From positions 1-64,000 of the IMG/VR virus record IMGVR_UViG_3300021962_000076: a stretch of 64,000 nt of DNA. One strand, 5' to 3'. Position 1 is the stretch's first letter. Each line of letters opens with the position of its first letter. Below, one piece after another: positions 1,615 to 62,078 of the stretch. Position numbers and translations under genes: made by a program. This stretch comes from a virus. Below the pieces are notes generated by a model. That model had not been told where the DNA came from, did no database searches, and saw nothing but the letters and a program-made list of their open reading frames with translations.

Positions 1615-1622
1615 TATTTATA
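1615..1622 (+). promoter_or_regulatory. TATTTATA element before the baseplate operon
   Basis: TATTTATA within TATATTTATATAA, only 4 nt before the ATG of the gp25-like gene and about 25 nt after a terminator. If it acts like a -10 box the mRNA would be leaderless. Confidence 0.5.
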
Positions 1623-1626
1623 TAAT

Positions 1627-2088
1627 ATGGCAAATGGAATAACATATGGAATAACGTTTCCTTTTTCACAATCAACAATTGGTAGATTCTTAGGCGTTAC
1701 AGAAACATCTGATGATGAAATAAGGAGTAACATAATACACCTATTATTAACTAGAAAAGGATCAAGATATTTTTTACCTGATTTTGGTACTAGACTATAT
1801 GAATTTATTTTTGAACCATTAGATGGGCCAACATTCTCTGATATTGACGCAGAAATTAGACAAAGTATTGGTCAATATCTTCCTGGAGTTAGAGTTACAA
1901 ATATTGAAATAACTGATGCTAGTAATGATTTTGACAATAAAGGTGCCACATATATTAATTCAGAGGGTCAAAGAGAATATGTAATTCCTGGTTTAGCACA
2001 AAAAGAATATACAGCAAAAGTTAAAATCGATTATAAAATAACAAATTCAGCATTAGAGTCTAGTGATTTTGTTATAATTAATATTTAA
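1627..2088 (+). CDS. Baseplate wedge protein, T4 gp25-like (GPW/gp25 family)
   Basis: 153 residues, close to the 132 of T4 gp25. The diagnostic stretch is LLLTRKGSRYFLPDFGTRLY with FEPLDG after it, and a C-terminal beta region (RVTNIEITD, then KVKIDYKI). In contractile tails this protein is part of the wedge core and helps nucleate the sheath. The gp6-like gene follows after 5 nt, the same order as in T4 (25, 6), which supports both calls. Expected late structural gene. Confidence 0.88.
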   Translation: MANGITYGITFPFSQSTIGRFLGVTETSDDEIRSNIIHLLLTRKGSRYFLPDFGTRLYEFIFEPLDGPTFSDIDAEIRQSIGQYLPGVRVTNIEITDASNDFDNKGATYINSEGQREYVIPGLAQKEYTAKVKIDYKITNSALESSDFVIINI

Positions 2089-2093
2089 TATAT

Positions 2094-3932
2094 ATGGCAG
2101 ATAAAAAGATATCATATACTACTAGAGACTTTGAATCGGTAAGAACAGAGTTAATTAACTTTACAAGACAGTATTATCCAGATTTAATACAGAATTTTAA
2201 TGATGCTGGTATATTCTCTGTTTTTTTAGATTTAAATGCCGCGGTAACCGACAATTTAAATTTTCATATTGATAGAAGTCTACAAGAAACAGTTCTACAA
2301 TTTGCACAACAAAGATCTTCAATATATAATATAGCAAGAACATATGGATTAAAAATTCCTGGACAAAGACCATCAGTTGCCCTAGTTGACTTTTCAATCA
2401 CAGTACCAGCTTTTGGTGATAAGGAAGACTTAAGATATTGTGGTATTTTAAGAAGAGGAGCCCAAGTTCTTGGGTCAGGTCAAATTTTTGAGACAGTATA
2501 TGACATTGATTTTTCATCAGCAATTAACGCTGAAGGGTTTCCAAATAGACTAAAAATTCCAAATTTTGATACTAGTGGAAGGTTATTAAATTATACAATA
2601 ACAAAAAGAGAAGTTGTCGTTAATGGAATTACAAAAGTGTTTAAAAGAGTTATAACACCAAACGATGTTAGACCATTCTTAGAGTTATTTTTACCAGAAA
2701 AGAATGTATTAGGAATTACAAGTGTTTTAGTTAAGGAAGGTACGCAATACACTACAATCCCACCAACACAAGAATTTTTAGGTTTAAATAATAGATGGTA
2801 CGAAGTAAGAGCATTAGCTGAAGATAGAGTGTTTGTTGAAGACCCAACAAAAGTATCAGACAATCCAGGTATTAAAGTTGGTAAGTATATTACAACAAGT
2901 AATAAATTTATAAGTGAATACACAAATGAAGGGTTTTTAAAGATGACTTTTGGTGGTGGAAATATATCTGCTGAAGAACAAATTAGGGATTTTGCAAGAA
3001 CTGGATACGATTTAAATATATCAAAATACTCAAACAATTTAGCACTTGGTAGTGCACTAAAACCAAACACAACATTATTCATACAATATAGAACTGGTGG
3101 TGGTGCTACTAGTAATTTAGGTGTTAATGTTATAAATCAAATTGGAACCGTAACATTCGCTGTTAATGGACCACAAGAAACAACAAATAGAACTGTAATA
3201 AATTCATTAAGATGTAACAATTTAACTGCCGCAGTTGGTGGTGCTAATAGACCAACAATAGAAGAAGTTAGAAATATGGTATCATTTAACTTTGCAGCAC
3301 AAAATAGAGCCGTAACAGTTAATGATTATGAATCTATTATTAGAAATATGCCATCACAATTTGGAGCACCAGCAAAAGTAACAATAACAGAGGAAAATAA
3401 TAAAATAAAAATAAAACTACTATCTTATGATGAAGATGGTAAGTTAACTGAAATATCATCAAACACATTAAAACAAAATATTGCAAATTACCTATCAAAC
3501 TATAGAATGATAAATGATTATATCTCAGTTGAAAGTGCGAATGTAATTGATTTAGGTGTCACAGTTGATGTTGTCCTAGATGCCACACAAAACCAAGGAG
3601 CTTTAGTCACAAAGATTGTTGATATTGTGACACAATATTTCTCACCAAGTAATAGACAAATGGGTGAAAATGTTTACGTATCAGAAATACGTAAGAATAT
3701 ACAAAACGAAGATGGTGTAATTAGTGTGTCTGATATTTTGTTCTTTAATAAAGTAGGAGGTCAGTATTCATCATCTCAAACGTCACAAAAATATTCAGAT
3801 CCTGAGACAAAACAAATCCAACTTATAGCCGACACAATATTTGCGGAACCAACCCAAACGTACCAAGTAAGATTCCCAAATAAAGACATTAACGTTAGAG
3901 TTCTTAATTTTAAAGGAATCAATTTCTCTTGA
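2094..3932 (+). CDS. Baseplate wedge protein, T4 gp6-like (baseplate J family)
   Basis: 612 residues. The N-terminus (YTTRDFESVRTELINFTRQ) followed by LIQNFNDAGIFSVFLDLNA, and the C-terminal half with AVGGANRPTIEEVRNM, NRAVTVNDYESIIRNMP and a gpJ-like domain, match the baseplate J/gp47 superfamily to which T4 gp6 belongs. gp6 forms the dimeric ring that joins the six wedges. Position directly after the gp25-like gene supports it. Length is near T4 gp6 (660). High confidence for family, moderate for exact equivalence. Confidence 0.87.
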   Translation: MADKKISYTTRDFESVRTELINFTRQYYPDLIQNFNDAGIFSVFLDLNAAVTDNLNFHIDRSLQETVLQFAQQRSSIYNIARTYGLKIPGQRPSVALVDFSITVPAFGDKEDLRYCGILRRGAQVLGSGQIFETVYDIDFSSAINAEGFPNRLKIPNFDTSGRLLNYTITKREVVVNGITKVFKRVITPNDVRPFLELFLPEKNVLGITSVLVKEGTQYTTIPPTQEFLGLNNRWYEVRALAEDRVFVEDPTKVSDNPGIKVGKYITTSNKFISEYTNEGFLKMTFGGGNISAEEQIRDFARTGYDLNISKYSNNLALGSALKPNTTLFIQYRTGGGATSNLGVNVINQIGTVTFAVNGPQETTNRTVINSLRCNNLTAAVGGANRPTIEEVRNMVSFNFAAQNRAVTVNDYESIIRNMPSQFGAPAKVTITEENNKIKIKLLSYDEDGKLTEISSNTLKQNIANYLSNYRMINDYISVESANVIDLGVTVDVVLDATQNQGALVTKIVDIVTQYFSPSNRQMGENVYVSEIRKNIQNEDGVISVSDILFFNKVGGQYSSSQTSQKYSDPETKQIQLIADTIFAEPTQTYQVRFPNKDINVRVLNFKGINFS

Positions 3933-3982
3933 TGATTTATTTTTTTTAGAAAAAGATTATTTTTTGAAAATAGGAAATAAAC

Positions 3983-3990
3983 TATTTATC
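3983..3990 (+). promoter_or_regulatory. TATTTATC element before the 1923-residue gene
   Basis: TATTTATC 15 nt before the ATG at 4006. The same octamer with the same 15-nt gap is found on the minus strand before 28871. Confidence 0.4.
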
Positions 3991-4005
3991 AAGAAATAGA
4001 AATCA

Positions 4006-9777: not shown

Positions 9778-9778
9778 T

Positions 9779-13522: not shown

Positions 13523-13530
13523 TATTTATA
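13523..13530 (+). promoter_or_regulatory. TATTTATA element before 13562 gene
   Basis: TATTTATA in the only sizeable gap of this stretch, 31 nt before the GTG start at 13562. Confidence 0.4.
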
Positions 13531-17466: not shown

Positions 17467-19697
17467 TGTCATTTCCTTTAGAAATATTAAATTTATCAAT
17501 AACTGGTGATTGTTCATTAGTTAGTGGCGGGTCAATTAACCTTTTATTTACTGGTGGGACAGCACCATTGGCGGTTTATGAAGCACCAATAACAACTGGA
17601 TTATTACCCACTTCAGGTTATACATCATTTGATTACACCCTTTATCAAGCTAGTGGATTACCACCCGGTGAATATTTTTTAACTATAGCAGATTCTTCAG
17701 CCTCAATCCCCGATATTGTTATACCATTCAATATTTCATCTGGAAGTACAGTACTAATAGATGCTGAAAATACAACTTGTGGTTTTAATAATGGATCAAT
17801 AACCGCATCAACTAGCAGTAATTTTGGACAAGTAACACTTAGTTTATATAATTCATTAGACAATTTAGTTGAAACACAAATAGCACCATACCCAACTTCA
17901 ACAGCATATTTTACAAATTTATCTGCTGATACATATTATGTTATTGGTGATGATGGTGGTGGCTGCACAGGACAAAGTGCTTCAGTTGTAATATTACCAT
18001 CAACAAGCTTTAATTATGGTGCTTATATTGTAAATGACTCAAGTTGTGTATCAACTGAAGGACAAGGAAAGATAATAATAACAGGTCTTACAACACCAAC
18101 AAGTGCGTATACAATAAATTGGATTAGTGATGTTAATGGTCAAACAGGAACAACAGTAACAGGATTAACACAAGGACTATATACTGTAGAAATAACAAAT
18201 CCTATTGGTTGTACCAATCAACAAGCATTTTTTGTTGACTTAGTACCATTAGTTGGAATTGGCTCTTTAATTGTAACCCAACCCCCAAGCTGTTTTACAA
18301 GTGATGGTGAAGTAACTGTTGTTGTTACTGGTGGTACGGCTCCATATTTTTATGTTGGGTCAAATGGGGATACATTTGTTAATTTTAGCACATCACAAAC
18401 ATTTACGAATTTACCAGGAGGTTTATTTACTGTGACAGTCACAGACGCTGGACTTTGTAGTGCTTCACAATCGGTACTATTAAATACACCAAATAGTTTT
18501 GGTGGAATTACAATACAAACAACAAACTCAACTTGTAGTAACAATAATGGTCAAGTCTCGATTAGTTTAGGATTTGCAGCACCAGGGTCTTATAATTATA
18601 GTATATCTGGTATTAGCGGATCACTATTTTTTCAAGAAAATGGGGTGGGGACACAAACGACATTCCCAAACCTAACATCAGATGATTATATAATAACAAT
18701 TGACAATGGTAGTGGATGTATTTTTACCGGAACAACAACCATTAGTAATTTAGATAAATTTACAATAGGGACTACAATTAGTGGAACTACTTGTGGTAGC
18801 AATAATGGAGAATTATTAGTTAGCTTATCTTCTGGTACAACAGGTAGTATCGCAACAACACCAGTGTTATATAACTTACAAGGACCATTACCTTCACTAT
18901 CAAATACAACACAACCTATTGGGTATTTCCCAAATTTACAAGAAGGGACATACCAATTAACAGTGACAGACTATAGTGGTTGTTCACAAATTGAAACAGT
19001 TTTTATTGACCCATCTAGCGCTGTTGATTTTATTTTAGTTGGTACAAACCCATTTACTGGTTATGATGGTGAAATTACGACTTTAATTACAAATGGGGTC
19101 CCACCATTTACATTAGTTTGGTCTGGAGATGTTATGGGGCAAACAGGCACAACAATAACTGGTTTAACATCAGGAACATACGAACTAACAGTTATAGATA
19201 GTGAAGGATGTTATAGAACTAGATCAATAACATTAAATGGTACTATATTAGTTGGTGGATATGAATCATACGTTGTATCAACAGAAACTTTTTCAGACAC
19301 AGATTCAGTTAGTAAACGAGGTATACTACAAATGTATAACGAAGGATTTTCTGATTTAACTAGTGGTGATACAAATTGTATTGTAACTGGTGCAACATTT
19401 ACATTAGATGTTATAGTTGGGTCTGAGTCGAAACAAAACTTATTTTATACATCGACAGGTTTAACAGACTATCCATCTGATTATTTGTGGAGTGAAGCAA
19501 TTAAAGAAACTTTAAATGAATTTGTTGGTATTGGAGAAGTTATTATAGATTTTAATACAAATAGTATTAAAATAACAAATGATTGTGATGAAATTAAAAA
19601 AGATTGTAAAAGGGAGACATATAATCTATTAAACGATGAGAAAATCATAATAAATTTAATTATTGATTATGACATTGCTTGTGTAGAATGTGCTTAA
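17466..19697 (+). CDS. Tail-fibre-like protein with SprB-type repeats
   Basis: 743 residues made of about seven tandem repeats of the SprB class, each with a small Gly turn, a GTAPY-like loop, and an ending such as GLYTVEITNPIGC or GTYELTVIDSEGC. Clear examples are GEVTVVVTGGTAPYFYVG and the GQTGTT(V/I)TGLT segments near residues 225 and 560. SprB repeats are known from gliding adhesins of flavobacteria, so the phage uses a host-type adhesive fold. The last 95 residues match the C-terminal module of the preceding protein. One-base overlap with that gene. Role as a receptor-binding or stalk protein is inferred. Confidence 0.75.
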   Translation: MSFPLEILNLSITGDCSLVSGGSINLLFTGGTAPLAVYEAPITTGLLPTSGYTSFDYTLYQASGLPPGEYFLTIADSSASIPDIVIPFNISSGSTVLIDAENTTCGFNNGSITASTSSNFGQVTLSLYNSLDNLVETQIAPYPTSTAYFTNLSADTYYVIGDDGGGCTGQSASVVILPSTSFNYGAYIVNDSSCVSTEGQGKIIITGLTTPTSAYTINWISDVNGQTGTTVTGLTQGLYTVEITNPIGCTNQQAFFVDLVPLVGIGSLIVTQPPSCFTSDGEVTVVVTGGTAPYFYVGSNGDTFVNFSTSQTFTNLPGGLFTVTVTDAGLCSASQSVLLNTPNSFGGITIQTTNSTCSNNNGQVSISLGFAAPGSYNYSISGISGSLFFQENGVGTQTTFPNLTSDDYIITIDNGSGCIFTGTTTISNLDKFTIGTTISGTTCGSNNGELLVSLSSGTTGSIATTPVLYNLQGPLPSLSNTTQPIGYFPNLQEGTYQLTVTDYSGCSQIETVFIDPSSAVDFILVGTNPFTGYDGEITTLITNGVPPFTLVWSGDVMGQTGTTITGLTSGTYELTVIDSEGCYRTRSITLNGTILVGGYESYVVSTETFSDTDSVSKRGILQMYNEGFSDLTSGDTNCIVTGATFTLDVIVGSESKQNLFYTSTGLTDYPSDYLWSEAIKETLNEFVGIGEVIIDFNTNSIKITNDCDEIKKDCKRETYNLLNDEKIIINLIIDYDIACVECA

Positions 19698-19706
19698 TAT
19701 ATTTTT

Positions 19707-20003
19707 ATGAGTGAAATAACAATAAATACCATTTCAGGACTAACACCACCATATAGTGTTTATGTGTGTAATGTTTATGGCGTTTATTGTGAATTTATAG
19801 GAGTTACAACAACAACACCAACAACAATAGTATTACCACCAGCTTTTGATTCAGCACCAATTGTGGGGATTAAAATAATTGATAGTACTGGTTGCGAGAG
19901 ATTTAAACTAGTTGAATGTCTTGATTTATCACTAGACGAAAAAGAATTCCAAAATGGAGACACATTTTATTTTATGGATTATGAAATATATCAATTCCAA
20001 TAA
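19707..20003 (+). CDS. Small fibre-associated beta protein (paralogue of 28650-28871)
   Basis: 98 residues. The pattern ITINTISGLTPPYSVYVCN, then C, then IIDSTGCE matches the 73-residue minus-strand protein at 28650-28871 (IINDISGQTPFNVYVCD, then VIDDNSCE). It resembles one shortened SprB-like repeat. It follows the SprB-repeat gene after 9 nt and probably caps or decorates a fibre. No characterised homologue known to me. Confidence 0.6.
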   Translation: MSEITINTISGLTPPYSVYVCNVYGVYCEFIGVTTTTPTTIVLPPAFDSAPIVGIKIIDSTGCERFKLVECLDLSLDEKEFQNGDTFYFMDYEIYQFQ

Positions 20004-20015
20004 CTTAGATTATTG

Positions 20016-20023
20016 TATTTATA
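20016..20023 (+). promoter_or_regulatory. TATTTATA element before YadA-type fibre gene
   Basis: TATTTATA 10 nt before the ATG at 20034. Confidence 0.45.
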
Positions 20024-20033
20024 ATTAAAAAAG

Positions 20034-20972
20034 ATGGCGTTATTAACAGATAGAACTTTAGCAACAGGCGTAACATTACAAGATTTAATACACATTGTAA
20101 TTCCAACAGATATTTCACAAAATCCAGCTGGATCATCATATAAAGCAACAATACAACAAATTGGGGACGCATTAAGTGGAAGTAGTTATTGGACTTCAGG
20201 GTCAACTGGGAATTATTCAGTTAAAACAATTAATGACAGTGGATTAGATGCTATAGGTGAATATTCAGTAGCAAGTGGTTATTTAACAACGGCAAGTGGT
20301 GATTATTCTTATGCGGAAGGAGTCGAAACAATAGCGTCAGCACCAATTTCGCATGCCGAGGGATATCAAACAATAGCTAGTGGCACAGCGTCTCATGCTG
20401 AGGGTGTGTTAACGATTGCCAGTGGTCAAACAGCCCACTCTGAGGGTTATAATACAATTGCTGGTGGTGTAGCAGCCCACTCTGAGGGTGGTTATAATCT
20501 AGCTTCTGGTGACTTTTCGCATGCTGAGGGTCATGAAACAAAAGCTTCTGGTTATTCTTCACATACTGAGGGTGATAATACTAGTGCTTCTGGTGATTAT
20601 TCTCACGCTGAAGGTAGATATACATATGCTAATGGTATGACATCACATGCTGAGGGTTCTGGTACCACTGCTAATGGTGCGGCAACACATTCTGGTGGGT
20701 TTAATACTAGCGCATTGGGGGACTATTCCTTTATACATTCAAATAATTCAATAGTAACTGGTGATAGAAGTGTTGTTTTGGGTGGTCAGGGTATAACTGG
20801 TACAACAAGTGATACTGTTTATGTTCCAGATTTTGTAATTAAAAAAACCGCATCTGTACCAACTAGCTCTGCTGATGCTGTTGGTGAAAATGGTTCCATT
20901 ACTTGGGATAATACTTATTTTTATTGGAAGGCAAATGGGCAATGGCTTAGAGTTTCTGGGTCAACATTTTAA
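20034..20972 (+). CDS. Tail fibre with YadA/Hep-Hag-type beta-roll repeats
   Basis: 312 residues. After an N-terminal attachment region, residues about 70-250 consist of a 14-16-residue repeat of the form ASGxxSHAEGxxTxA, for example ASGDYSHAEGRYTYA, more than ten copies. This is the left-handed parallel beta-roll head of trimeric autotransporter adhesins (YadA), which phages also use. The C-terminus (GSITWDNTYFYWKANGQWLR) looks like a small tip domain. Trimeric receptor-binding fibre is the natural inference. It follows a TATTTATA element and precedes a putative glycosyltransferase. Confidence 0.8.
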   Translation: MALLTDRTLATGVTLQDLIHIVIPTDISQNPAGSSYKATIQQIGDALSGSSYWTSGSTGNYSVKTINDSGLDAIGEYSVASGYLTTASGDYSYAEGVETIASAPISHAEGYQTIASGTASHAEGVLTIASGQTAHSEGYNTIAGGVAAHSEGGYNLASGDFSHAEGHETKASGYSSHTEGDNTSASGDYSHAEGRYTYANGMTSHAEGSGTTANGAATHSGGFNTSALGDYSFIHSNNSIVTGDRSVVLGGQGITGTTSDTVYVPDFVIKKTASVPTSSADAVGENGSITWDNTYFYWKANGQWLRVSGSTF

Positions 20973-21120
20973 TAATATATTAAAAATTTAACTAATCACA
21001 AAATAAAGATTTACACTTTTTCTAAAATCAAACTATCTATATTTATTTGGTATTTTTAACAAAAAAAATGTATTCATTATTTTAACATTTAAATTATATT
21101 TAAAAATATAATATTAAAGA
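20973..21120 (+). other. 148-nt AT-only-like intergenic leader
   Basis: Very AT-rich gap with no ORF or clear hairpin terminator. It contains TATATTTATT (element at 21040-21047). The longest leader before any structural gene here. Confidence 0.4.
21040..21047 (+). promoter_or_regulatory. TATTTATT element, 73 nt before glycosyltransferase gene
   Basis: TATTTATT in the AT-rich gap; longer leader than usual for this element, so support is weaker. Confidence 0.3.
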
Positions 21121-22095
21121 ATGAATAATTTAGTTTTTGTTACAGCACAACCAGACGTACCTTATTTTCATTGGCAAATAAAATTATATACACATAATTT
21201 TATTGAAAAAGGAATTGACCCAAAAAATATACACGTCATTTTAGCCATGGTCCATGGCGCTACAACACAATCAGAAGGTGCTAAAGAATTATTAAACCAA
21301 GGATATAACGTTCATTTTTATAAAGACGATAGAGATAAAAAGTCATATATCCCAAGTATAAAACCATACCTAGTTTCAAAATGGTTAGAAGAATATCCAG
21401 AATTTGGTAAAGTATTCTTTTTACATGATGCGGACATTATATTTAACAAATTACCAGATTTTGATAAATTATTAAGTGATGATATAAGTTATTTATCAGA
21501 TACAATTGGTTATATTGGATATAATTATATTATGGATTGTTGTGATCGATATGAAAAACAACACCCAGAATCAGAAAAAGGACAATTAATACAAGAAATG
21601 GCCAATGTTGTCGGACTAGATGTTGAGACAATTAAAAATAATCAAGAAAATTCTGGTGGAGGCCAGTATATTATAAAAAATACAGATTATAAACTTTGGG
21701 ATAAGATATACAAAGATTGTACACCATTATATAATCAAATGTTAGATTACCAAAGAAGATTCCCAATAAATCCTGGTCAAATACAATTTTGGACGGCAGA
21801 AATGTGGTCAGTACTTTGGAATTTATGGTTAGTTGGTAATGAAACCAAAATAACAAAAGAGTTAGATTTTTCTTGGGCAACAGACGATATAAAAAGGTAT
21901 GAAGAAATGCCAATACTTCATATGGCAGGTGTAACAGATAATTTAAAAGATGTTAAATTTTATAAGGGGGATTATATTAATAAAGACCCAATCAAATCAT
22001 TAATAAATAACCCAAACCATTTTGATTATATTGATAAAAATAGTTCTACAATAAAATATATCGAATTAATGAAATCTTTTATAAAAAATAAATAA
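21121..22095 (+). CDS. Putative GT-A-fold glycosyltransferase
   Basis: 324 residues. The N-terminus (NNLVFVTAQPDVPYFHWQ) looks like a Rossmann-type nucleotide-sugar domain. FFLHDADIIFNK around residue 100 gives an HDAD motif (D103, D105) like the DxD metal site of GT-A enzymes. Later motifs GGGQYIIKN, EMWSVLWNLWLVG and ILHMAGV resemble the acceptor side of peptidyl hydroxyproline or serine glycosyltransferases. It lies inside the tail-fibre block, so modification of fibre proteins (several very Thr-rich) is a plausible role. Family name is uncertain; sugar donor unknown. Confidence 0.6.
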   Translation: MNNLVFVTAQPDVPYFHWQIKLYTHNFIEKGIDPKNIHVILAMVHGATTQSEGAKELLNQGYNVHFYKDDRDKKSYIPSIKPYLVSKWLEEYPEFGKVFFLHDADIIFNKLPDFDKLLSDDISYLSDTIGYIGYNYIMDCCDRYEKQHPESEKGQLIQEMANVVGLDVETIKNNQENSGGGQYIIKNTDYKLWDKIYKDCTPLYNQMLDYQRRFPINPGQIQFWTAEMWSVLWNLWLVGNETKITKELDFSWATDDIKRYEEMPILHMAGVTDNLKDVKFYKGDYINKDPIKSLINNPNHFDYIDKNSSTIKYIELMKSFIKNK

Positions 22096-22100
22096 ATGAT

Positions 22101-22108
22101 TATTTATA
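22101..22108 (+). promoter_or_regulatory. TATTTATA element before 756-residue fibre gene
   Basis: TATTTATA 11 nt before the ATG at 22120. Confidence 0.45.
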
Positions 22109-22119
22109 TATAAAACAAT

Positions 22120-24390
22120 ATGGCAGGGTGCGATCAATGTAGGCAAACTATTTTAGTAAATACAGGTGTAACGGTTAGTGTTGCAACATTAATTGATTGT
22201 AGTGGTAATACAACATCTTTTAGTTTAGCACCAACATCTGGATTCACAACATACGAACCATATATTACCGATTTTTGTAGTGGAACCACAATTAGCGGTG
22301 ATACACTATATATCGATAATGATTATCCACTAACACATTGGTACTCCTTTAGTTCTTGTTGTAATAACGAAGAGTTTATCGTCTACTCAAGTTCAAAACT
22401 AATCCAAACAGGAGAGACAATAAATATAATTGATTCTAAATCATATAATGGAAATGTATATACCGGATGTTATACCTGTACAAATACTGATAAAATTGGT
22501 TCTAACGAACCTATTTTAGATAGATTAATATATTTTGAACCACAAGGAAGTCCTATTGAAGGCATTATTATCTATAAACTAGGCTGCGTAAGTTGTCTTG
22601 AAGTAAATCCATGTCCTACAATATGTTATAAATTATATTCTTGTGACAATCTATATGATCCATTTTATAGTAAAAACGAAGGACTATCTGGTTTTGTGAA
22701 TAATTATGTTTCTTTAACAACTAGTGGTATAACTAATGGATGTTTTTATGTTACAGGAGTTGAAAGTTGCGACAATTATGAAGATGTTACAATAAATTAT
22801 GATATAATGTGTGAGTGCACATGTAGTTGCTACACTTATACAATACCTGAGAATTCTAAACCAATAATAATAACTTATATTGATTGCAATGATAACGAAA
22901 TATCTAATTATGTTAATACAGGCGCCACAACAAGTATTTGTTCAAAGATAACTCCTTTATTTTATAATGAAGTAAATCGAATTATAATCCCAATTAAAAA
23001 TAATGGTCCATGTATTAATGGAGAATGTCAAAAACAACCAATAACAATAAAACCAAGAAATGAGTGTGATGTTATAACTATTTTCCCTATGGGAGTTAGT
23101 TGCTTAGTAACAAACCCATCATCAGTAAATTCATTTGATGGTTATACATACTTACAAATAACAGGAGGAACACCACCATATACAGTAATGTGGGAGAATG
23201 GAAGTTATGGACAATCTTTAAGTGATTTAAACATAGGTGAATATAGTGCGACAGTTACAGATTTTTATGGTGATTTTATAATTAACACAACTTGCGTATT
23301 AACAGCTACAACAACTACTAGCACAACAACCACAACAACAACAATACCAGTAATTTATGGACCATTATGTCTATCATATAATGAAAGTGTACATTATAAT
23401 ACCACAACAACACAAGTCCAATTTGAACCATCTATCAACATTAACAATCAACCAAGTTGGACTGGTACAACAGACTATTTACTATATTGGAACGAAAATC
23501 AATGGATTATAACTGGAAGTACAATTAATGGGGATTTAGTAAATAATAATCCAATAACACCACCATTAGTTGGTTGGCAATTCCTAGGTAATCCATATTA
23601 TGTTGCGGATACATTATTATTATATTCAGGTTTATGCACTAGTGGTGAAGCAATAATTTTAAATCAAATTGCAAATACAAATGTTGACTGTAATAATTTA
23701 GGATCAATTGCAATAACACCAAATGGAGGTACACAACCATATTTATACTCAATTAATGGAGGAATAAACTACTATAACACACCAATATTTAATAATTTAC
23801 AACCAGGCACATATTTCATTAAAACTAAAGATTCTTTAGATAATGAATCACAAATAACAGAGGTATTAGTTGAAAATATACCAACACAACAATATACATT
23901 ATCATTAAATGTTGATCAAAACACAAATACATTTACAATAACACCAGATAGTAGTTTACCACCATATCAAACTATATCATTTAATTTTGGACATATTAGT
24001 ACCTTCATTGGAGTATCAACAATAAATCCAGGGCAATCATATGACAATATAGTAAGTTTTGGTGCTTTAGGAACTATGACATATGTTGGACAAAATAATT
24101 CAACAGATACTATAATTTGTGGTGGATATGTTACTCCTAGACAAATACAACAAACAACATATACAAAAGCACTAACAATAAATGGTGGTGAGACAATAAC
24201 TGGATCATTTACTGATTTACTAAACTATGGGATTTGGACACCAACCGAATGTAGATATATAGATGGTCAGTACACATTATTCATTGAAAGTGCTAATTGT
24301 GGCGACTGTTGTATTGTAAAAATTATAAATCCACCATTAACACAAAATCTTGGAGGAGGTAATTTTGTGTTACCACCAAAATTACCATAA
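22120..24390 (+). CDS. Modular fibre protein: Cys-rich N-terminus, SprB-like repeat, Thr linker
   Basis: 756 residues. The N-terminal 300 residues are Cys-rich beta modules, one of which (ITYIDCNDNEISNYVNTGAT followed by SICS) resembles the C-terminal module of the minus-strand protein at 27556. Residues about 340-390 hold an SprB-like unit (LQITGGTPPYTVMWENGSYG, then GEYSATVTDFYG). A poly-Thr linker (TTTTSTTTTTTTIP) follows, and then another repeat-like unit with GGTQPYLYSINGG. This is the build of a long, linker-jointed adhesin. Thr linkers may be glycosylated by the neighbouring transferase (inference). Confidence 0.7.
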   Translation: MAGCDQCRQTILVNTGVTVSVATLIDCSGNTTSFSLAPTSGFTTYEPYITDFCSGTTISGDTLYIDNDYPLTHWYSFSSCCNNEEFIVYSSSKLIQTGETINIIDSKSYNGNVYTGCYTCTNTDKIGSNEPILDRLIYFEPQGSPIEGIIIYKLGCVSCLEVNPCPTICYKLYSCDNLYDPFYSKNEGLSGFVNNYVSLTTSGITNGCFYVTGVESCDNYEDVTINYDIMCECTCSCYTYTIPENSKPIIITYIDCNDNEISNYVNTGATTSICSKITPLFYNEVNRIIIPIKNNGPCINGECQKQPITIKPRNECDVITIFPMGVSCLVTNPSSVNSFDGYTYLQITGGTPPYTVMWENGSYGQSLSDLNIGEYSATVTDFYGDFIINTTCVLTATTTTSTTTTTTTIPVIYGPLCLSYNESVHYNTTTTQVQFEPSININNQPSWTGTTDYLLYWNENQWIITGSTINGDLVNNNPITPPLVGWQFLGNPYYVADTLLLYSGLCTSGEAIILNQIANTNVDCNNLGSIAITPNGGTQPYLYSINGGINYYNTPIFNNLQPGTYFIKTKDSLDNESQITEVLVENIPTQQYTLSLNVDQNTNTFTITPDSSLPPYQTISFNFGHISTFIGVSTINPGQSYDNIVSFGALGTMTYVGQNNSTDTIICGGYVTPRQIQQTTYTKALTINGGETITGSFTDLLNYGIWTPTECRYIDGQYTLFIESANCGDCCIVKIINPPLTQNLGGGNFVLPPKLP
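23306..23345 (+). repeat. ACA/ACT trinucleotide tract coding poly-Thr linker
   Basis: In-frame run of mostly ACA and ACT codons. Similar tracts occur at 25025-25059 and, on the other strand, at 27767-28367, so it can slip by whole codons and offers homology for recombination. Confidence 0.7.
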
Positions 24391-24405
24391 AATATCATTA
24401 CTTAG

Positions 24406-24413
24406 TATTTATT
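24406..24413 (+). promoter_or_regulatory. TATTTATT element before 825-residue gene
   Basis: TATTTATT only 4 nt before the ATG at 24418, the same close spacing as at 1615. Confidence 0.4.
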
Positions 24414-24417
24414 AGAA

Positions 24418-28886: not shown

Positions 28887-28894
28887 GATAAATA
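28887..28894 (-). promoter_or_regulatory. TATTTATC element for the minus-strand fibre pair
   Basis: Reads TATTTATC on the minus strand, 15 nt before the ATG at 28871; identical to the arrangement at 3983. Confidence 0.4.
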
Positions 28895-38344: not shown

Positions 38345-38352
38345 TATATTTG
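38345..38352 (+). promoter_or_regulatory. Bacteroidota-type -7 element before sigma operon
   Basis: TATATTTG 14 nt before the ATG at 38367, preceded by an A/T-rich spacer; a TTTG box at the -33 position is not evident (only a T run). Confidence 0.6.
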
Positions 38353-38366: not shown

Positions 38367-38894
38367 ATGAAATACTTACTTTTTATTTACCCATGTGATA
38401 ATACTTGGGACAAAGACGAACACAACAAGATTGTCGCAACAGAGATATCAACAGTGATTGAATCAGTTGAGGTTAAATTCATTTTTGGTGAAAACCATTC
38501 AATATTTCATTTTAATAGTGGACTATCATATTCTGAATTGGAAATTTTTGTTGAGCTATTAAAAGATGATGTCCCAGAATTTATGTACTTTATCGTTGAA
38601 GATGCAAAAAATGTTGCGTCAAATATGGATAAAAATCATTTAACTTATTTAATGGATTTAGAGGTCAAGCCAAAAAAGAAGAATAGAATTAAAGATATAT
38701 TTAAAAATAATCAAGACATCTTTAGTTTTTATAATTTAACTAAAATAATAAACAATGATCAGTATAATTTCTTAAAAGAGGAGACCTGTGATTTGACTAT
38801 TGATGAAATTTTAGATAAAATTATAGAACAAGGTATTGACTCTTTGACAAAACTAGAAAAATTGAAATTAGATGAATATTCAAAAGAACAATAA
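38367..38894 (+). CDS. Unknown protein co-transcribed with sigma factor
   Basis: 175 residues, first gene behind the TATATTTG promoter. N-terminal beta region (KYLLFIYPCDNTWDKDEHNK), C-terminal helices. The sigma gene begins 1 nt after its stop. No domain recognised; a sigma-associated regulator is a guess from position only. Confidence 0.55.
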   Translation: MKYLLFIYPCDNTWDKDEHNKIVATEISTVIESVEVKFIFGENHSIFHFNSGLSYSELEIFVELLKDDVPEFMYFIVEDAKNVASNMDKNHLTYLMDLEVKPKKKNRIKDIFKNNQDIFSFYNLTKIINNDQYNFLKEETCDLTIDEILDKIIEQGIDSLTKLEKLKLDEYSKEQ

Positions 38895-38895
38895 T

Positions 38896-39696
38896 ATGAA
38901 GGAAAAAAATAGTGGAGCACCAATAAACCAAGAAGAGATTTACCATTACCTAAAAGATATTAGGGGTATTAAGGTTATGACACCTGAAAGAGAAAAGGAG
39001 TTGGCAACTATTATGAAATCAGCTGACACAAGTCAGAGAGAACGTGATAGGATTGAAAGAGAATTACTTGAGGGTAATTTAAGGTTTGTAATTACTGTTG
39101 CAAAAAAATATCAAAACCAAGGTTTAGATCTTTCTGATTTAATTGCAGAAGGTAATTTAGGACTTATGAAGGCAATCAAAAACTTTGATTGGAGTAAAGA
39201 CCTAAGATTTATTTCTTATGCTGTTTGGTGGGTTAAACAGTCAATTCTACAATCATTAAATGATAACTCTAGAACAATTAGACTTCCAGTTAATGTAATC
39301 CAAGATTTACATAAAGCAAAAAAAGAAGTCGAGCAAAGTGGTAATAAATTAGATGATAGATTTGCTGAACTACCATCGATTATTAATCTAGATATGAACA
39401 TTAACGATGAGGGTGACACCCTAATTGATATCATTAGAAACAATGAAGCTGAATCACCCGATGCTGCATTTGATACTAAAGATATTTTAAAAACTAAATT
39501 AATTTCACTTTTAGATAATTTAGATAATAGAGAAAAATCAATTGTTGGTGATTACTTTGGTCTAACAGGAACACCAAGAACTTTGGAAGATATTGGCTCT
39601 GACTTTAATTTAACAAAGGAAAGGGTTAGACAAATAAAAGAAAAAGCATTAAGACGATTACGTAATGAATCATCTGAATTATTTGATTATTTATAG
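38896..39696 (+). CDS. RpoD-like sigma-70 factor
   Basis: 266 residues from the ATG at 38896. Region 1.2 is IYHYLKDIRGIKVMTPEREK. Region 2 has GNLRFVITVAKKYQNQGLDL, DLIAEGNLGLMKAIKNFDW and FISYAVWWVKQSILQ. Region 3 starts at SRTIRLPVNV. Region 4 has LEDIGSDFNLTKERVRQIKE. The short form without region 1.1 and the RFV..VAK.YQNQGL pattern closely resemble the housekeeping sigma of Bacteroidota (about 287 residues), suggesting capture from the host. It should redirect host RNA polymerase to phage promoters, perhaps the TATTTAT elements. A cytosine methyltransferase follows after 3 nt. Confidence 0.9.
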   Translation: MKEKNSGAPINQEEIYHYLKDIRGIKVMTPEREKELATIMKSADTSQRERDRIERELLEGNLRFVITVAKKYQNQGLDLSDLIAEGNLGLMKAIKNFDWSKDLRFISYAVWWVKQSILQSLNDNSRTIRLPVNVIQDLHKAKKEVEQSGNKLDDRFAELPSIINLDMNINDEGDTLIDIIRNNEAESPDAAFDTKDILKTKLISLLDNLDNREKSIVGDYFGLTGTPRTLEDIGSDFNLTKERVRQIKEKALRRLRNESSELFDYL

Positions 39697-39699: not shown

Positions 39700-40551
39700 A
39701 TGAATGTATTAAGTTTATTTGACGGAATTAGCTGTGGACAGATAGCACTAGAAAGGTGTGGTATTGATTATGAAAATTACTTTGCATCAGAAATTGATAA
39801 GTATGCAATCCAAATCACACAAAAGAATTATCCTAACACAACCCAACTAGGGGATATTACAAACCTAAAGACAAGTGATTTACCAAAGATAGATATTGTT
39901 TTTGGTGGATCTCCTTGTCAATCATTTAGTAATCTAGGTAATGGAAAAGGATTTGATGGTAAGAGTGGTTTATTTTGGGAATATGTTAGAGTTTTAAACG
40001 AACTAAAAGAAACAAATCCAGATATTTTATTTCTTTTAGAAAATGTTAAAATGAAAAAAGAGTGGCAAGATATTATATCAGAAGCTTTAGGTGTTAAACC
40101 AATTGAGATTAATAGTAGATTAGTTTCAGCACAAAATAGGCCAAGACTATATTGGACCAATATCCCAAACATAACACAACCAAAAAATAAAAAACTAAAA
40201 CTAAAAGATGTTTTAGAAAAAAATGTCGATAACAAGTTTTATTTATCTGAAGCTGCAGTTAATAGAATTACCGCAAGCAAATTTGGTAGAGAGTTCGCAA
40301 CTATTGATACAGAAAAAACTAGAACTCTCACAGCGGGATATTATAAGATTCCCTCGGATGGTGCGTACTTTAGTGAAGGCGAAAGAAAAAGAAAGTATAC
40401 CCCAAAAGAGTTTGAAAGATTACAAACACTACCAGAGGATTATACAAAAGATTTAAGTAACTCACAGAGATACAAAACAATTGGAAATGGATGGACTGTT
40501 GATGTGATTTCTCATATATTTTCACATATCCCTGTGAAAGTAATAGTATAA
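39700..40551 (+). CDS. Cytosine-C5 DNA methyltransferase 1 of 3
   Basis: 283 residues. Motif I LSLFDGISCG, motif IV GGSPCQSFS with the catalytic C73, motif VI FLLENV (114-116), motif VIII SAQNRPRLYWTNIP and motif X IGNGWTVDVI. It transfers a methyl group to cytosine C5 at a sequence set by the variable region between motifs VIII and IX. No partner restriction enzyme is near, so protection of phage DNA is likely. The first 40 nt are nearly identical to those of the two following genes. Confidence 0.9.
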   Translation: MNVLSLFDGISCGQIALERCGIDYENYFASEIDKYAIQITQKNYPNTTQLGDITNLKTSDLPKIDIVFGGSPCQSFSNLGNGKGFDGKSGLFWEYVRVLNELKETNPDILFLLENVKMKKEWQDIISEALGVKPIEINSRLVSAQNRPRLYWTNIPNITQPKNKKLKLKDVLEKNVDNKFYLSEAAVNRITASKFGREFATIDTEKTRTLTAGYYKIPSDGAYFSEGERKRKYTPKEFERLQTLPEDYTKDLSNSQRYKTIGNGWTVDVISHIFSHIPVKVIV

Positions 40552-40556
40552 AAATT

Positions 40557-41441
40557 ATGAATGTATTAAGTTTATTTGATGGAATTAGTTGTGGTAGATT
40601 AGCCCTTGATAGAGCTAATATAAAGTACGATAGATACTATTCTAGTGAGATAGACAAGAAAGCCATTGAGGTTGCTATGTGTAACTATCCAGACACAATA
40701 CAAATTGGGGATATAAAAAAAATCAATACGTCATTTGCACCAAAAATAGATTTAATCATTGGCGGCTCCCCTTGTCAATCATTTAGTAGATCAGGAGATG
40801 GAACCGGGTTTAAAGGTAAGAGTGGATTATTTTGGGAGTACGTAAGAGTTTTAAAAGGACTAAACCCAAAGTATTTTTTACTAGAAAATGTTGTAATGAA
40901 AAAAGAGTGGGAGGATATTATAACTGAAGCTATTGGTGTTGAACCATTTATGATTGATAGTAAATTCTTTTCTGCACAAAAAAGACAAAGATTATATTGG
41001 ACCAATATCCCATTCGATAAAAATATTGTTGATAGAAACATCAATATATTAGACATATTAGAACCAAATGGCGATGAGAAAATAATAAATGATCACCCAG
41101 TTGTAATTAGTGAAACTAATAATATTTTTAAAATTAGAAACGCAACAAAATTAGGTTACCTTGAAGCCATTAATGGTGATTGCGTTAATCTAGAAGTCCC
41201 AAATAGTAAGACAAGAAGAGGTAGGGTAAGCAATGGAAAAACAAATACATTAAACACCGCTTGTAATTATGGAGTTGTTGTTAATGATAATATTAGAGAA
41301 TTAAACATAACAGAATACGAGAGATTACAAACATTACCTGATGGTTTCACAGAAGGCCCATCAATTAGGGAAAGAAAAAAAATGATTGGTAATGGTTGGA
41401 CAGTTGATGTAATTTCTCATATATTTAAAGGTATAAAATAA
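40557..41441 (+). CDS. Cytosine-C5 DNA methyltransferase 2 of 3
   Basis: 294 residues, paralogue of its neighbours. Motifs: LSLFDGISCG, GGSPCQSFSRSG (C73), FLLENVVMKKEW, FSAQKRQRLYWTNIPF and IGNGWTVDVI. Its recognition region (about 165-255) differs from copies 1 and 3, so a different target is expected. 5 nt separate it from both flanking genes. Confidence 0.9.
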   Translation: MNVLSLFDGISCGRLALDRANIKYDRYYSSEIDKKAIEVAMCNYPDTIQIGDIKKINTSFAPKIDLIIGGSPCQSFSRSGDGTGFKGKSGLFWEYVRVLKGLNPKYFLLENVVMKKEWEDIITEAIGVEPFMIDSKFFSAQKRQRLYWTNIPFDKNIVDRNINILDILEPNGDEKIINDHPVVISETNNIFKIRNATKLGYLEAINGDCVNLEVPNSKTRRGRVSNGKTNTLNTACNYGVVVNDNIRELNITEYERLQTLPDGFTEGPSIRERKKMIGNGWTVDVISHIFKGIK

Positions 41442-41446
41442 AAACT

Positions 41447-42322
41447 ATGAACGTATTAAGCTTATTTGATGGAATGTCGTGTGGACAAATCGCACTAGAA
41501 AGGATTGGAATTAAAGTTGAAAACTATTATGCTAGCGAAATAAAAAAACATGCAATCCAGGTAACACAAAAAAACTACCCAAACACAATACAAGTTGGTG
41601 ATGTTACAAAACTAAAAGGTAGTGATTTACCAAAAATTGATTTACTAATTGGTGGATCACCATGTCAAGACTTTAGTAGGGCCAATAAAACAAAAAAAGG
41701 TCTTGATGGAGATAAGAGTGGACTATTTTGGGAATATGTTAGACTAGTAAAAGAAACAAAACCAACCTATTTTCTTTTGGAAAATGTTAAAATGAAAAAA
41801 GAGTGGCAAGATATTATTTCAGAAGAGCTTGGTGTACAACCAGTTAAAATTAATTCATCTTTAGTTACTGGAATGTTAAGAGAACGTTTTTATTGGACTA
41901 ATATACCATTCGATACCAATATTAAAGATAAAGGAATTAAATTAGCCGATATTATTGATGATGGATATGTTGATCGAGAAAAGGGTTATTGTCTACTCGA
42001 AAGTTATTCTAGACCATTAAAAACACCAGCTAAAATCGCTAGAAGATATTTCCTATACGGATTTTGGCAAGTTGTATTCAAAGATGAAGAAACCTATAAT
42101 AGACTAAAAGAAGATTATAACTTAGCTCAAGAAGGTGATGTTAGATATATGACACACGAAGAAATGGAAAGAGCACAAAGTGTACCACCTGGATACACAT
42201 CAGATTTAACAAGAAATGAATCAGCATGCCTTTTAGGTGACGGATGGACAGTCGATGTTATAGCACATATATTCCAAGGACTAAAAGTTGAAAAAAATAT
42301 CGAAAAAGTTATTGTAGATTAA
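41447..42322 (+). CDS. Cytosine-C5 DNA methyltransferase 3 of 3
   Basis: 291 residues. LSLFDGMSCG, GGSPCQDFSRAN (C73) and FLLENVKMKKEW are conserved. Motif VIII is changed to TGMLRERFYWTNIPF and motif X to LGDGWTVDVI, both still plausible. The target region contains SRPLKTPAKIARRYFLYGFW, unlike the other two copies. Most diverged of the three. Followed by a host-type promoter starting a new unit. Confidence 0.88.
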   Translation: MNVLSLFDGMSCGQIALERIGIKVENYYASEIKKHAIQVTQKNYPNTIQVGDVTKLKGSDLPKIDLLIGGSPCQDFSRANKTKKGLDGDKSGLFWEYVRLVKETKPTYFLLENVKMKKEWQDIISEELGVQPVKINSSLVTGMLRERFYWTNIPFDTNIKDKGIKLADIIDDGYVDREKGYCLLESYSRPLKTPAKIARRYFLYGFWQVVFKDEETYNRLKEDYNLAQEGDVRYMTHEEMERAQSVPPGYTSDLTRNESACLLGDGWTVDVIAHIFQGLKVEKNIEKVIVD

Positions 42323-43181: not shown

Positions 43182-43189
43182 TATTTATA
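43182..43189 (+). promoter_or_regulatory. TATTTATA element before lysis region
   Basis: TATTTATA 13 nt before the ATG at 43203 and about 14 nt after the terminator. Confidence 0.5.
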
Positions 43190-47310: not shown

Positions 47311-47318
47311 TATTTATA
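47311..47318 (+). promoter_or_regulatory. TATTTATA element before 408-residue gene
   Basis: TATTTATA 13 nt before the ATG at 47332, the same spacing as at 43182. Confidence 0.45.
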
Positions 47319-51028: not shown

Positions 51029-51036
51029 AATAAATA
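51029..51036 (-). promoter_or_regulatory. TATTTATT element for minus-strand 50999 gene
   Basis: Reads TATTTATT on the minus strand, 29 nt before the ATG at 50999, in the 43-nt gap shared with DnaJ. Confidence 0.35.
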
Positions 51037-52170: not shown

Positions 52171-52178
52171 TATTTATT
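52171..52178 (+). promoter_or_regulatory. TATTTATT element before LRR gene
   Basis: TATTTATT 15 nt before the ATG at 52194. Confidence 0.4.
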
Positions 52179-55258: not shown

Positions 55259-55259
55259 T

Positions 55260-55912: not shown

Positions 55913-56192
55913 GGTTGCTGTTTTATTCACAATGGATGGTTGTCCTTTTTGTGTTGATTTAAAAAATATGTTAAATGAGGCTGGTATTGAGTACTATGAT
56001 AGAGATATTCATAAATATGAAGATGAATACAACCTTTTTGTTGAAATAACTGAAAATGAATATGTTCCGGCCTTTATGTTGATTGAAGCCCCAGAGACAG
56101 AAGCCCCAATCACAAATTTATTTGCACCAGATCGAGACTTCCAGGATATAAATGAAGGGTTTGATATTATAAAATCATTCTTAGTTGATTAA
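55905..56192 (+). CDS. Glutaredoxin-like protein
   Basis: 95 residues. LFTMDGCPFCVDLKNML has a CPFC site (C13, C16); EYVPAFML provides the cis-Pro; YYDRDIHKYEDE is the typical second strand. It may serve the reductase or protect against oxidative stress. Overlaps thioredoxin by 8 nt and is followed by a strong bidirectional terminator. Confidence 0.82.
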   Translation: MDKVAVLFTMDGCPFCVDLKNMLNEAGIEYYDRDIHKYEDEYNLFVEITENEYVPAFMLIEAPETEAPITNLFAPDRDFQDINEGFDIIKSFLVD

Positions 56193-56194
56193 CA

Positions 56195-56220
56195 AAAAAC
56201 CCCCTTAATTGGGGGTTTTT
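56195..56220. terminator. Bidirectional intrinsic terminator
   Basis: AAAAACCCCC (56195-56204) and GGGGGTTTTT (56211-56220) around TTAATT. A and T runs on both sides let it serve the glutaredoxin unit and the convergent minus-strand unit. Confidence 0.92.
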
Positions 56221-56223
56221 AAT

Positions 56224-56919: not shown

Positions 56920-56968
56920 ATTCTATTTTTTTATAATGAATATGATTTTTATTTCAATAACTAAATAG

Positions 56969-59091: not shown

Positions 59092-59095
59092 ATTC

Positions 59096-59103
59096 TATAA
59101 ATA
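59096..59103 (-). promoter_or_regulatory. TATTTATA element for 59091 gene
   Basis: Reads TATTTATA on the minus strand, 4 nt before the ATG, directly after the T tract of the minus-strand terminator. Confidence 0.45.
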
Positions 59104-59104
59104 C

Positions 59105-59130
59105 AAAAAGGTGGGAAAAAATAACCCACC
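59105..59130 (-). terminator. Minus-strand intrinsic terminator
   Basis: GGTGGG and CCCACC (59110-59115, 59125-59130) with a 9-nt loop; on the minus strand TTTTT follows. Ends the MGCGC gene. Confidence 0.75.
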
Positions 59131-59157
59131 TATATGTATTCTTTAGTTAAATGAAAT

Positions 59158-59307
59158 TTATTTACTATAATACTTTTGAATAATTTTTTTAACAGATTCC
59201 TGAACACTTTGTGTTTGAGTATTAGTACTACTAGTAGTATTTGAGGATTTAATTTGTTGTTGTGTAGTGTTATTATTGTTTCCCTTATTTTTGCAACCAC
59301 ATCCCAT
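59158..59307 (-). CDS. MGCGC small protein
   Basis: 49 residues: MGCGCKNKGN, a Thr/Ser/Gln-rich linker, and a C-terminal helix QESVKKIIQKYYSK. The frame has a TATTTATA element 29 nt upstream and a terminator downstream, i.e. a complete single-gene unit. A longer frame in another register over the same bases lacks these protein-like features. I recall similar MGCGC proteins in other Bacteroidota phages. The cysteines could bind metal, or be an acylation site. Confidence 0.65.
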   Translation of the reverse strand: MGCGCKNKGNNNNTTQQQIKSSNTTSSTNTQTQSVQESVKKIIQKYYSK

Positions 59308-59336
59308 AACAATTGTTTTTATTAAGTTTATTTAAT

Positions 59337-59344
59337 TATAAATA
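59337..59344 (-). promoter_or_regulatory. TATTTATA element for MGCGC gene
   Basis: Minus-strand TATTTATA, 29 nt before the ATG at 59307; the plus-strand element at 59377 serves the divergent gene. Confidence 0.45.
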
Positions 59345-59376
59345 TTATGATATATTCATATTTGTAAAGTTTAAGG

Positions 59377-59384
59377 TATTTATT
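59377..59384 (+). promoter_or_regulatory. TATTTATT element before 433-residue gene
   Basis: TATTTATT 5 nt before the ATG at 59390. Confidence 0.4.
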
Positions 59385-59389
59385 GTTGT

Positions 59390-60691: not shown

Positions 60692-60733
60692 ATAATATTT
60701 ACAGATTATATTATATGGTTATTTTTAAATTAA

Positions 60734-61507
60734 ATGAGAAAAAAGAAAAAGATAGAATTTTTAATGGACACAGATTGGATGTTCGAAAAACCCATAGACC
60801 GGGAACACAAAGAATATAAACTACTATCTTATTTTCAAAAAATGGGCGAAAGACTCGACAATATGGAGTTATACCCAGGATTCATAGAACTTTCATTACA
60901 CTTAGCAAATGCACAAACATTACTTAAGGATAAAAAAATGTTATATACTGATAAGAGGTTTAAAACACCTGATGATGAATTATTAGTAAAAGACCTTAAG
61001 TTAAAAGAACTACCACATATGTCAAATGAAGAATATTTTGAGTTTGTCAAAATATTAGGATATTCATTACCAAGACTTATGGAATATTTTAGTATTGCTA
61101 AATCAGTATGGGAATTAGTATTTGATAGTGTACATTTAATTGTAAAAAAGAATAAAAAAAATATAACATCAATAGATGGTTTTTTTTATTTTAAAGACAA
61201 AAAGGAAAATAAAATTTATTTATGGGAATATACAGAAAAACCAGCAACAAGAGGTGCAAATGAAAATAAAATAATAACAAAACTTATTTATTGTGATGAA
61301 ATAAATAAATCAACAGTCCCAAAAATAATAAGTGAGAATGTAACTAGAGAGGATAAATCAAAACTACCAGTAATTGAGATGGTAAGTAGAGGTGAATTCC
61401 CAATTGAAGAAACATTACTACCACTTTTTAAAAGAAAGTTATTATCTTATCTATATCAAAAAAGATTAATTAAGGAAAATGAAGAAGTCGAAAATAAAGA
61501 AAGCTAA
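60734..61507 (+). CDS. Unknown protein
   Basis: 257 residues, basic start (RKKKKIEFLMDTDWMFEKPI), helical body, C-terminal ETLLPLFKRKLLSYLYQKRL. I have met relatives of this kind in marine phages as hypotheticals. Its 3' end overlaps the DUF3310 gene by 29 nt. The 42-nt gap before it has only a TATTTACA variant. Confidence 0.6.
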   Translation: MRKKKKIEFLMDTDWMFEKPIDREHKEYKLLSYFQKMGERLDNMELYPGFIELSLHLANAQTLLKDKKMLYTDKRFKTPDDELLVKDLKLKELPHMSNEEYFEFVKILGYSLPRLMEYFSIAKSVWELVFDSVHLIVKKNKKNITSIDGFFYFKDKKENKIYLWEYTEKPATRGANENKIITKLIYCDEINKSTVPKIISENVTREDKSKLPVIEMVSRGEFPIEETLLPLFKRKLLSYLYQKRLIKENEEVENKES

Positions 61508-61718
61508 AGAACAAGTCGACCACCCAAAACATTATGGTGGTGAAGACAATACATATGAAGCAATAAAAGTAATTGACGCCTGGGATTTAAACTTTTCTTT
61601 GGGTAATACAGTAAAGTATATATCAAGAGCTGGTAAAAAAGATAAAGAAAAAGAAATCGAAGATTTAGAAAAAGCTTTATGGTATTTAGAGCACCATATT
61701 AATAAATTAAAAGATTAA
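61479..61718 (+). CDS. DUF3310 protein
   Basis: 79 residues. QVDHPKHYGGEDNTYEAIKV followed by GNTVKYISRAGKK and DLEKALWYLEHHI is the DUF3310 signature, common in phages and sometimes described as nucleotide-kinase-like without firm proof. The stop overlaps the stop of the convergent DUF192 gene. Confidence 0.85.
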   Translation: MKKSKIKKAKEQVDHPKHYGGEDNTYEAIKVIDAWDLNFSLGNTVKYISRAGKKDKEKEIEDLEKALWYLEHHINKLKD

Positions 61719-62065
61719 TCTGTTATAAAAACAGAGTCACCTTCTTTTATGTCATATTTTTCACAATCACCACCATTTATTTCTAAAATCAAATCAGCAA
61801 CACCACTATATCTAGGACAGTTATCTTCTCTACATGGAGGGCAATTACTATGAATTTTATTAATTTTTAAATCTTTTATGAAAATAATATCTAAAGACGT
61901 TATGCAGTTTTTCATCCAAAAAGAATGGGAACTAATTTCATTAAAAACGAATAACATACCATTAAAATCATCGTTAAATTTTTTATACATCATACCATTT
62001 TCAATATCCTGTCTAGTAATAACTGGTATGACTTTAAGTAGATTATCATTTATAATTAACTCCAT
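61715..62065 (-). CDS. DUF192 family protein (minus strand)
   Basis: 116 residues. GMMYKKFNDDFNGMLFVFNE, then SFWMKNCITSLDIIFI and LILEINGGDCEKYDIKEGDS match DUF192, a small beta-barrel family of unknown role, in bacteria often exported. An inserted NCPPCREDNCP adds three cysteines. No signal peptide. Divergent from the Nudix gene across a palindromic element. Confidence 0.85.
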   Translation of the reverse strand: MELIINDNLLKVIPVITRQDIENGMMYKKFNDDFNGMLFVFNEISSHSFWMKNCITSLDIIFIKDLKINKIHSNCPPCREDNCPRYSGVADLILEINGGDCEKYDIKEGDSVFITD

Positions 62066-62078
62066 ATTTATAAATATG
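62063..62078. promoter_or_regulatory. Palindromic bidirectional TATTTATA element
   Basis: CATATTTATAAATATG is a perfect 16-bp palindrome. It gives TATTTATA on the plus strand (62065-62072, 11 nt before the Nudix ATG) and on the minus strand (62076-62069, 3 nt before the DUF192 ATG). Confidence 0.55.

Follow-up and report, generated by a model that had tools for sequence, protein, structure and literature searches.

TATTTAT as a predicted phage-specific promoter box, with a gp55-type sigma factor as its probable reader, in T4-like phages of Bacteroidota

We have analysed a window of 64,000 nucleotides, bases 1-64000 of the 74,650-base (74.65-kb) IMG/VR virus record IMGVR_UViG_3300021962_000076, in which the heptamer TATTTAT (hereafter the box) stands shortly before the first gene of many transcription units. 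Enrichment, strand-specificity, conservation among orthologues, gene content, spacing and controls together strongly support the prediction, made from sequence, that the box marks a phage-specific promoter class. Its consensus, TATTTAT(A/T/C), is distinct from the TAnnTTTG consensus of the host class, and we found no account of it in an open-access library. The window has a G+C content of 25-32%, almost no Shine-Dalgarno sequences and T4-like baseplate genes (gp25-like at 1627, gp6-like at 2094). Some of its promoters fit the TAnnTTTG -7 box of Bacteroidota, which makes this phylum the most likely source of the host. A megablast search against named phages gave no match. The nearest named relatives in a gp6 comparison are a huge uncultured phage, a Microcystis phage and Flavobacterium phage immuto (26-28% identity), and the close relatives are uncultured contigs, the largest of 296 kb.

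Gene starts were taken from 98 genes called by a codon-usage script. A gap window is an upstream window with an intergenic gap of at least 18 nt, and the background consists of 500 dinucleotide shuffles. TATTTAT occurs in 19 of the 51 gap windows of the record versus 4.7±1.9 after shuffling (0/500 shuffles reached 19), and before a single one of the 45 operon-internal genes. Its count over the whole window is at chance level (80 versus 75.9±8.9 expected). The enrichment is thus positional, and a window-wide 7-mer count is uninformative as a test. Enrichment is much lower for the reverse complement ATAAATA (9 gap windows versus 4.5 shuffled); TATTTATA is found in 11 versus 2.1. An earlier note on this DNA had listed 18 boxed starts and described a near-absence of the box inside tight operons. 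This near-absence is confirmed, and all 18 copies are indeed present. At 17 of these starts the box lies 4-32 nt from the start codon; the copy attributed to 21121 is 74 nt off and may be a chance occurrence. Start 1627 has two copies, and 13562 is a GTG codon 32 nt from its box. Beyond the window, further copies precede 64473(-), 64532 and 68300. De novo expectation-maximization, like the shuffles a check proposed in that note, returns TATTTAT at 89-99% per position, followed by an A-rich stretch at +11 to +13 from the first T; the base preceding the box is seldom T.

The box is also positional among relatives. In 160 related IMG/VR loci it is present in 39.2% of 1,227 gap windows versus 2.8% of 1,411 operon-internal windows, the corresponding values for ATAAATA being 7.5% and 5.8%. 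In four relatives of 208-296 kb (G001, G002, G004 and G005), 36-52% of the gap-preceded genes are boxed, with 42-102 boxed windows versus 8-16 expected from shuffles. As relatives share ancestry, these counts are not independent, and the orthologue test and the use of separate genomes guard against this only partly. The cultured phage immuto is also enriched in TATTTAT, which marks its structural genes. Box presence is nearly all-or-none per orthologue group (99-100% before the gp25-like, 4006 and 47332 genes), and the sequence flanking the box has diverged at most promoters. At the 47332 promoter the other 7-mers of the upstream window are kept at a median of 11% versus 100% for the box. At the 4006 promoter conservation extends throughout, with other 7-mers kept at a median of 51%. 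Here, within 3950-4005, the sequence upstream of the box, AAATAGGAAATAAAC, is also kept in relatives, unlike at other boxed promoters, which suggests an additional regulatory or RNA element.

The controls behaved as expected. Run through the same pipeline, phage T4 yields its own box TATAAATA (15 versus 1.6), with TATTTAT slightly raised (7 versus 3.4). In the 160 related loci TATAAATA occurs in 3.7% of gap windows versus 2.7% of operon-internal windows; TATTTAT is the enriched box. In the first 50 kb of each of the unrelated flavophages phi38:1 and phiST, TATTTAT is not enriched (0/37 and 1/40), but TAnnTTTG is present. After removal of the boxed windows of the relatives, the top leftover motifs are TATCTTTG and TATATTTG, with TTGACA also raised; together they constitute the host promoter. 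In immuto, a run of small genes at 67.6-75.1 kb (L167, about 17600-25100) shows a near-identical promoter-like repeat, TATATTTAGGTATCAATAATTAAAAC, before each gene, probably an early promoter family.

No conserved -35 block was found 15-45 nt upstream of the box. The distance from its first T to the start codon ranges from 11 to more than 40 nt and clusters at 11-14 nt (114 of 351) and at 19-23 nt, with few cases at 15-18 nt. The host -7 box occupies -12 to -5 (PMC9723704) and peaks in these genomes at the same distance of 12 nt to the start; the register of TATTTAT fits -12 to -6. In the simplest reading, transcription would start about 12 nt downstream of either box; about one third of the boxed mRNAs would then be leaderless, and leaders of a few nucleotides would be avoided. 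Box orientation follows transcription: in 525 tandem gaps the box is forward in 248 and reverse in 55, and in 94 divergent gaps it is forward in 58 and reverse in 61. The palindromic TATTTATAAATA was rejected as a bidirectional promoter, most gaps that contain it being tandem, and mainly reflects the A-rich preference downstream. At 62065-62084 two opposite boxes overlap within a divergent gap of 18 nt, so the two promoters are probably mutually exclusive. The proposal that several boxes come right after an intrinsic terminator holds in part, as a terminator-like hairpin is present in 60 of 251 boxed versus 32 of 274 unboxed tandem gaps.

Gene classes in the relatives were assigned with the immuto annotation as a guide. 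The sheath, tube, gp25 and gp6 genes of all four relatives, as well as the terminase, portal, protease and capsid genes, found in G001 and G002, are directly boxed or one gene into a boxed unit. In immuto the box precedes the terminase, portal, sheath, tube, tape measure and tail spike genes. TAnnTTTG precedes the gene of an RpoD-like sigma factor (sigma37) in four of four relatives, and ThyA and DnaJ in two each. Units for ssb, a RecA-like recombinase and DnaB are also boxed in relatives, and the class in the clade of the window is therefore middle-and-late rather than strictly late; 'late' fits the virion genes but is slightly narrow. Of the phage-specific late promoter postulated earlier, the phage-specific part is thus strongly supported, and a purely structural or late role is too restrictive.

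We consider it rather probable that a gp55-like sigma factor reads TATTTAT as the -10-only middle/late promoter of T4-like myoviruses of Bacteroidota. TATTTAT would act at these promoters as a -10 element (about -12 to -6) without a -35 partner. A gp55-type phage sigma, produced from a long operon without boxes, would replace the host sigma on the host core RNA polymerase, bind the box and open it. The transcript would then begin with an A some 11-13 nt beyond the first T, in many cases the A of the start codon itself. The RpoD-like sigma operon and the early genes would instead run from the host-type TAnnTTTG promoter.

The candidate, a protein of about 230-250 amino acids, was first noticed through weak phrog_234 matches in immuto and five relatives, and its gene is present in immuto and in G001, G002, G003, G008 and G012, large relatives with head genes. 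The immuto protein is homologous to the versions of the clade (hhalign E 3e-12). Sigma70_r2 (30 of 57 members) and a late-sigma PHROG (24 of 57) are by far the commonest families matched. In a Foldseek search with an AlphaFold model (predicted local distance difference test, pLDDT, 75), the leading entries are mostly sigma structures, with the best local fits to SigA domain 2 and, at 2.0 Å over 67 columns, to the N-terminal domain of SigE; a PDB sequence search with the profile gave no match. In loci around the clade genes the box is found in 50% of gap windows versus 4% of operon-internal ones. The gene was not found in phi38:1 or phiST, which are also without box enrichment. G004 and G005 have no gp55-like gene either, but these contigs also yielded no terminase, portal or protease and are therefore probably incomplete. 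Upstream of the gene, 70 of 80 loci show no promoter-type motif as far as the stored sequence reaches, usually about 10 kb; the gene thus does not belong to a short boxed unit.

Several observations weigh against this assignment. Pairwise hhalign of T4 gp55 with the gp55-like protein gives an E value of about 0.001 and a probability of 9-17%, and no Foldseek match of the model is significant. A T4 late sigma does not usually act early, as the reader of the boxed replication units would have to. The gene was not found in the 74.65-kb record or in a near-identical 81-kb contig, which is explained only by incompleteness. The record may be incomplete, as the G004 and G005 contigs probably are, with the gene lying outside the sequenced fragment; because it was not found in the fragment, the reader proposed for this phage is inferred from the relatives.

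The principal alternative leaves the box a promoter and assigns it to sigma37, made from a host-type promoter and altered in -10 specificity. This protein is encoded in the window itself, is present as a single copy in 14 of 15 large relatives and has a promoter of host type in 41 of the 42 loci tested (one mixed), as would suit a middle/late cascade. It shares at most about 44% identity with cellular RpoD (a 65% match is to a 3.3-kb contig, probably of phage origin) and lacks about 24 residues of region 3 relative to Bacteroidota RpoD. Yet its regions 2.4 and 4.2 are host-like, and region 2.4 is nearly that of host RpoD, which reads TAnnTTTG rather than TATTTAT. Moreover, in immuto the box class occurs together with the gp55-like gene, whereas neither sigma37 nor any Sigma70_r2 match was found. 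We therefore regard sigma37 as an unlikely reader. Its predicted fold was of low confidence (pLDDT 58.5) and was not used. An extracytoplasmic function (ECF)-type sigma at 63460-64473(-) of the record (L005:3461-4474), with the N-terminus MKIIITESQY...FSLNE fused ahead, was rejected as reader: its own gene is boxed, and such a sigma is present in some relatives but not in all. Of the 1,507 proteins of these genomes, 18 share the MKIIITESQ start, 12 of them behind TATTTAT, and our guess is a capsid-targeting or processing signal.

It is still less probable that the reader is a host sigma, primary or alternative, for which the box would be a variant -7 element, perhaps with the help of a phage activator. 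The shared register and the TAnnTTT-like letters of some copies would suit such a variant, but box and host classes are sharply separate per orthologue, the host -33 element is absent at boxes, the six sigma motifs of F. psychrophilum do not include TATTTAT (PMC9723704), and phi38:1 and phiST have host-type promoters without TATTTAT enrichment. That the box is no promoter but a translation or mRNA 5'-end signal, such as a start-site enhancer of Bacteroidota, is very improbable. Its closeness to start codons in phages whose hosts lack Shine-Dalgarno sequences would be explained, but operon-internal starts with the same translation needs are rarely boxed, and the distance to the start is variable with two clusters. 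Chance matches in AT-rich DNA would account for the whole-window count, which equals expectation, but are contradicted by the positional, orthologue and control tests alike and can be considered excluded. The gp55-like sigma remains our preferred reader.

Table 1. Boxes and related features of the window
Feature	Position	Strand	Remark
TATTTAT before 681 (HNH/endonuclease VII-like gene)	649..655	+	box in 10/10 orthologues
TATTTAT, outer copy, before 1627 (gp25-like baseplate gene)	1589..1595	+	
TATTTAT, inner copy, before 1627, ATG 12 nt away	1615..1621	+	box in 99% of 69 orthologues
TATTTAT before 4006 (1923-amino-acid protein, downstream of gp6-like baseplate gene)	3983..3989	+	100% of 77 orthologues
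TATTTAT before 13562	13523..13529	+	88% of 24 orthologues
TATTTAT before 20034	20016..20022	+	motif position
TATTTAT before 22120	22101..22107	+	motif position
TATTTAT before 24418, ATG 12 nt away	24406..24412	+	motif position
TATTTAT before 28871(-)	28888..28894	-	motif position
Host-type TATATTTG promoter, operon 38367-39696 holding RpoD-like sigma	38345..38352	+	TAnnTTTG in 88%, TATTTAT in 3% of 80 orthologues
RpoD-like sigma (sigma37), alternative reader candidate	38872..39696	+	Pfam Sigma70_r2 and r4
TATTTAT before 43203	43182..43188	+	7/7 orthologues
TATTTAT before 47332	47311..47317	+	100% of 62 orthologues
TATTTAT before 50999(-)	51030..51036	-	weaker: 36% of 42 orthologues
TATTTAT before 52194	52171..52177	+	motif position
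TATTTAT before 59091(-), ATG 12 nt away	59097..59103	-	behind GTGGG/CCCACC hairpin with T-run
TATTTAT before 59307(-)	59338..59344	-	motif position
TATTTAT before 59390 (433-amino-acid protein, weak scaffold-protein matches)	59377..59383	+	boxed in 4/4 whole relatives
TATTTAT before 62084 (NUDIX)	62065..62071	+	overlaps opposite box
TATTTAT before 62065(-) (DUF192)	62070..62076	-	overlaps opposite box

A host-type TATTTG sequence lies upstream of the box of gene 59390. Elsewhere in the window, three tandem cytosine-methyltransferase-like genes at 39700-42322 resemble each other (translations compared by eye), and a protein at 27556-28650(-) contains many threonine runs (TTTTTT), as is typical of structural proteins in flavophages.

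The closest known system is the late transcription of T4, in which a -10-only box without -35 conservation is served by gp55, gp33 and gp45 (PMC2988020). Our group shares the -10-only box, its position at virion genes, a T4-like virion gene set and a gp55-type sigma, but the box is TATTTAT instead of TATAAATA, the host sigma context is that of Bacteroidota, some replication genes belong to the boxed class, unlike the T4 late class, and the gp55-like protein is only weakly similar to T4 gp55 and longer than its 185 amino acids. Likeness to the reverse complement of the T4 box, pointed out earlier, is uninformative. It is more useful to compare the two boxes in one orientation (TATTTAT versus TATAAAT, 5/7 identical), because both are -10-only and both phage groups have a gp55-type sigma. 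Among 15 relatives gp33 (PF16805) was not found, in a search without a positive control. A gp45 clamp (PF09116) was found in T4, no relative exceeded the cut-off, and a DnaN-type clamp was not found either. The DNA polymerase is of family B in the clade of the window and of family A in immuto; given the family-B polymerase, a diverged clamp is possible in the clade. Since TATAAATA is not the enriched box here and neither gp33 nor gp45 was found, we do not class TATTTAT as a T4 late promoter. It is almost certainly a start switch recognised by a phage-made helper of the host RNA polymerase, the counterpart of the T4 late-gene switch with an altered sequence.

Precedents for gp55 systems with related or altered boxes are given by the variant late boxes of Aeromonas phage Aeh1 (a/gC for TA), KVP40, 44RR and S-PM2 (PMC2988020); compared to these, the change here is central (AA to TT) and the phages infect Bacteroidota. 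The TAnnTTTG -7 box of the Bacteroidota primary sigma (PMC9723704) occurs in the same phages with the same register and about 12 nt from first T to start, but TATTTAT is without a G after the T-run and without the TTG -33 element, and precedes a separate gene class. Leaderless mRNAs form only 5.5% of the mapped mRNAs in the hosts (PMC9723704), but from the bimodal spacing they are predicted to be numerous among the late mRNAs of the phages. Tentatively, and with clear reservations, we picture a widespread T4-like group of Bacteroidota phages with late transcription by a gp55-type sigma of new specificity, apparently without gp33 and a T4-type clamp, with many leaderless mRNAs and a multi-sigma cascade to which the clade of the window adds a host-derived RpoD paralogue short in region 3 and some of its members an ECF sigma. 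Late genes of this large and almost uncultured group of aquatic phages, in which scans for the gp55-like gene gave at least 600 stretches, would become callable from sequence, with the box as a legible promoter code. Box and candidate sigma together would amount to a T4 late box recoded in nature, which may help to learn how gp55-type sigmas read DNA and bears on the question whether the sliding-clamp coupling of T4 is ancestral.

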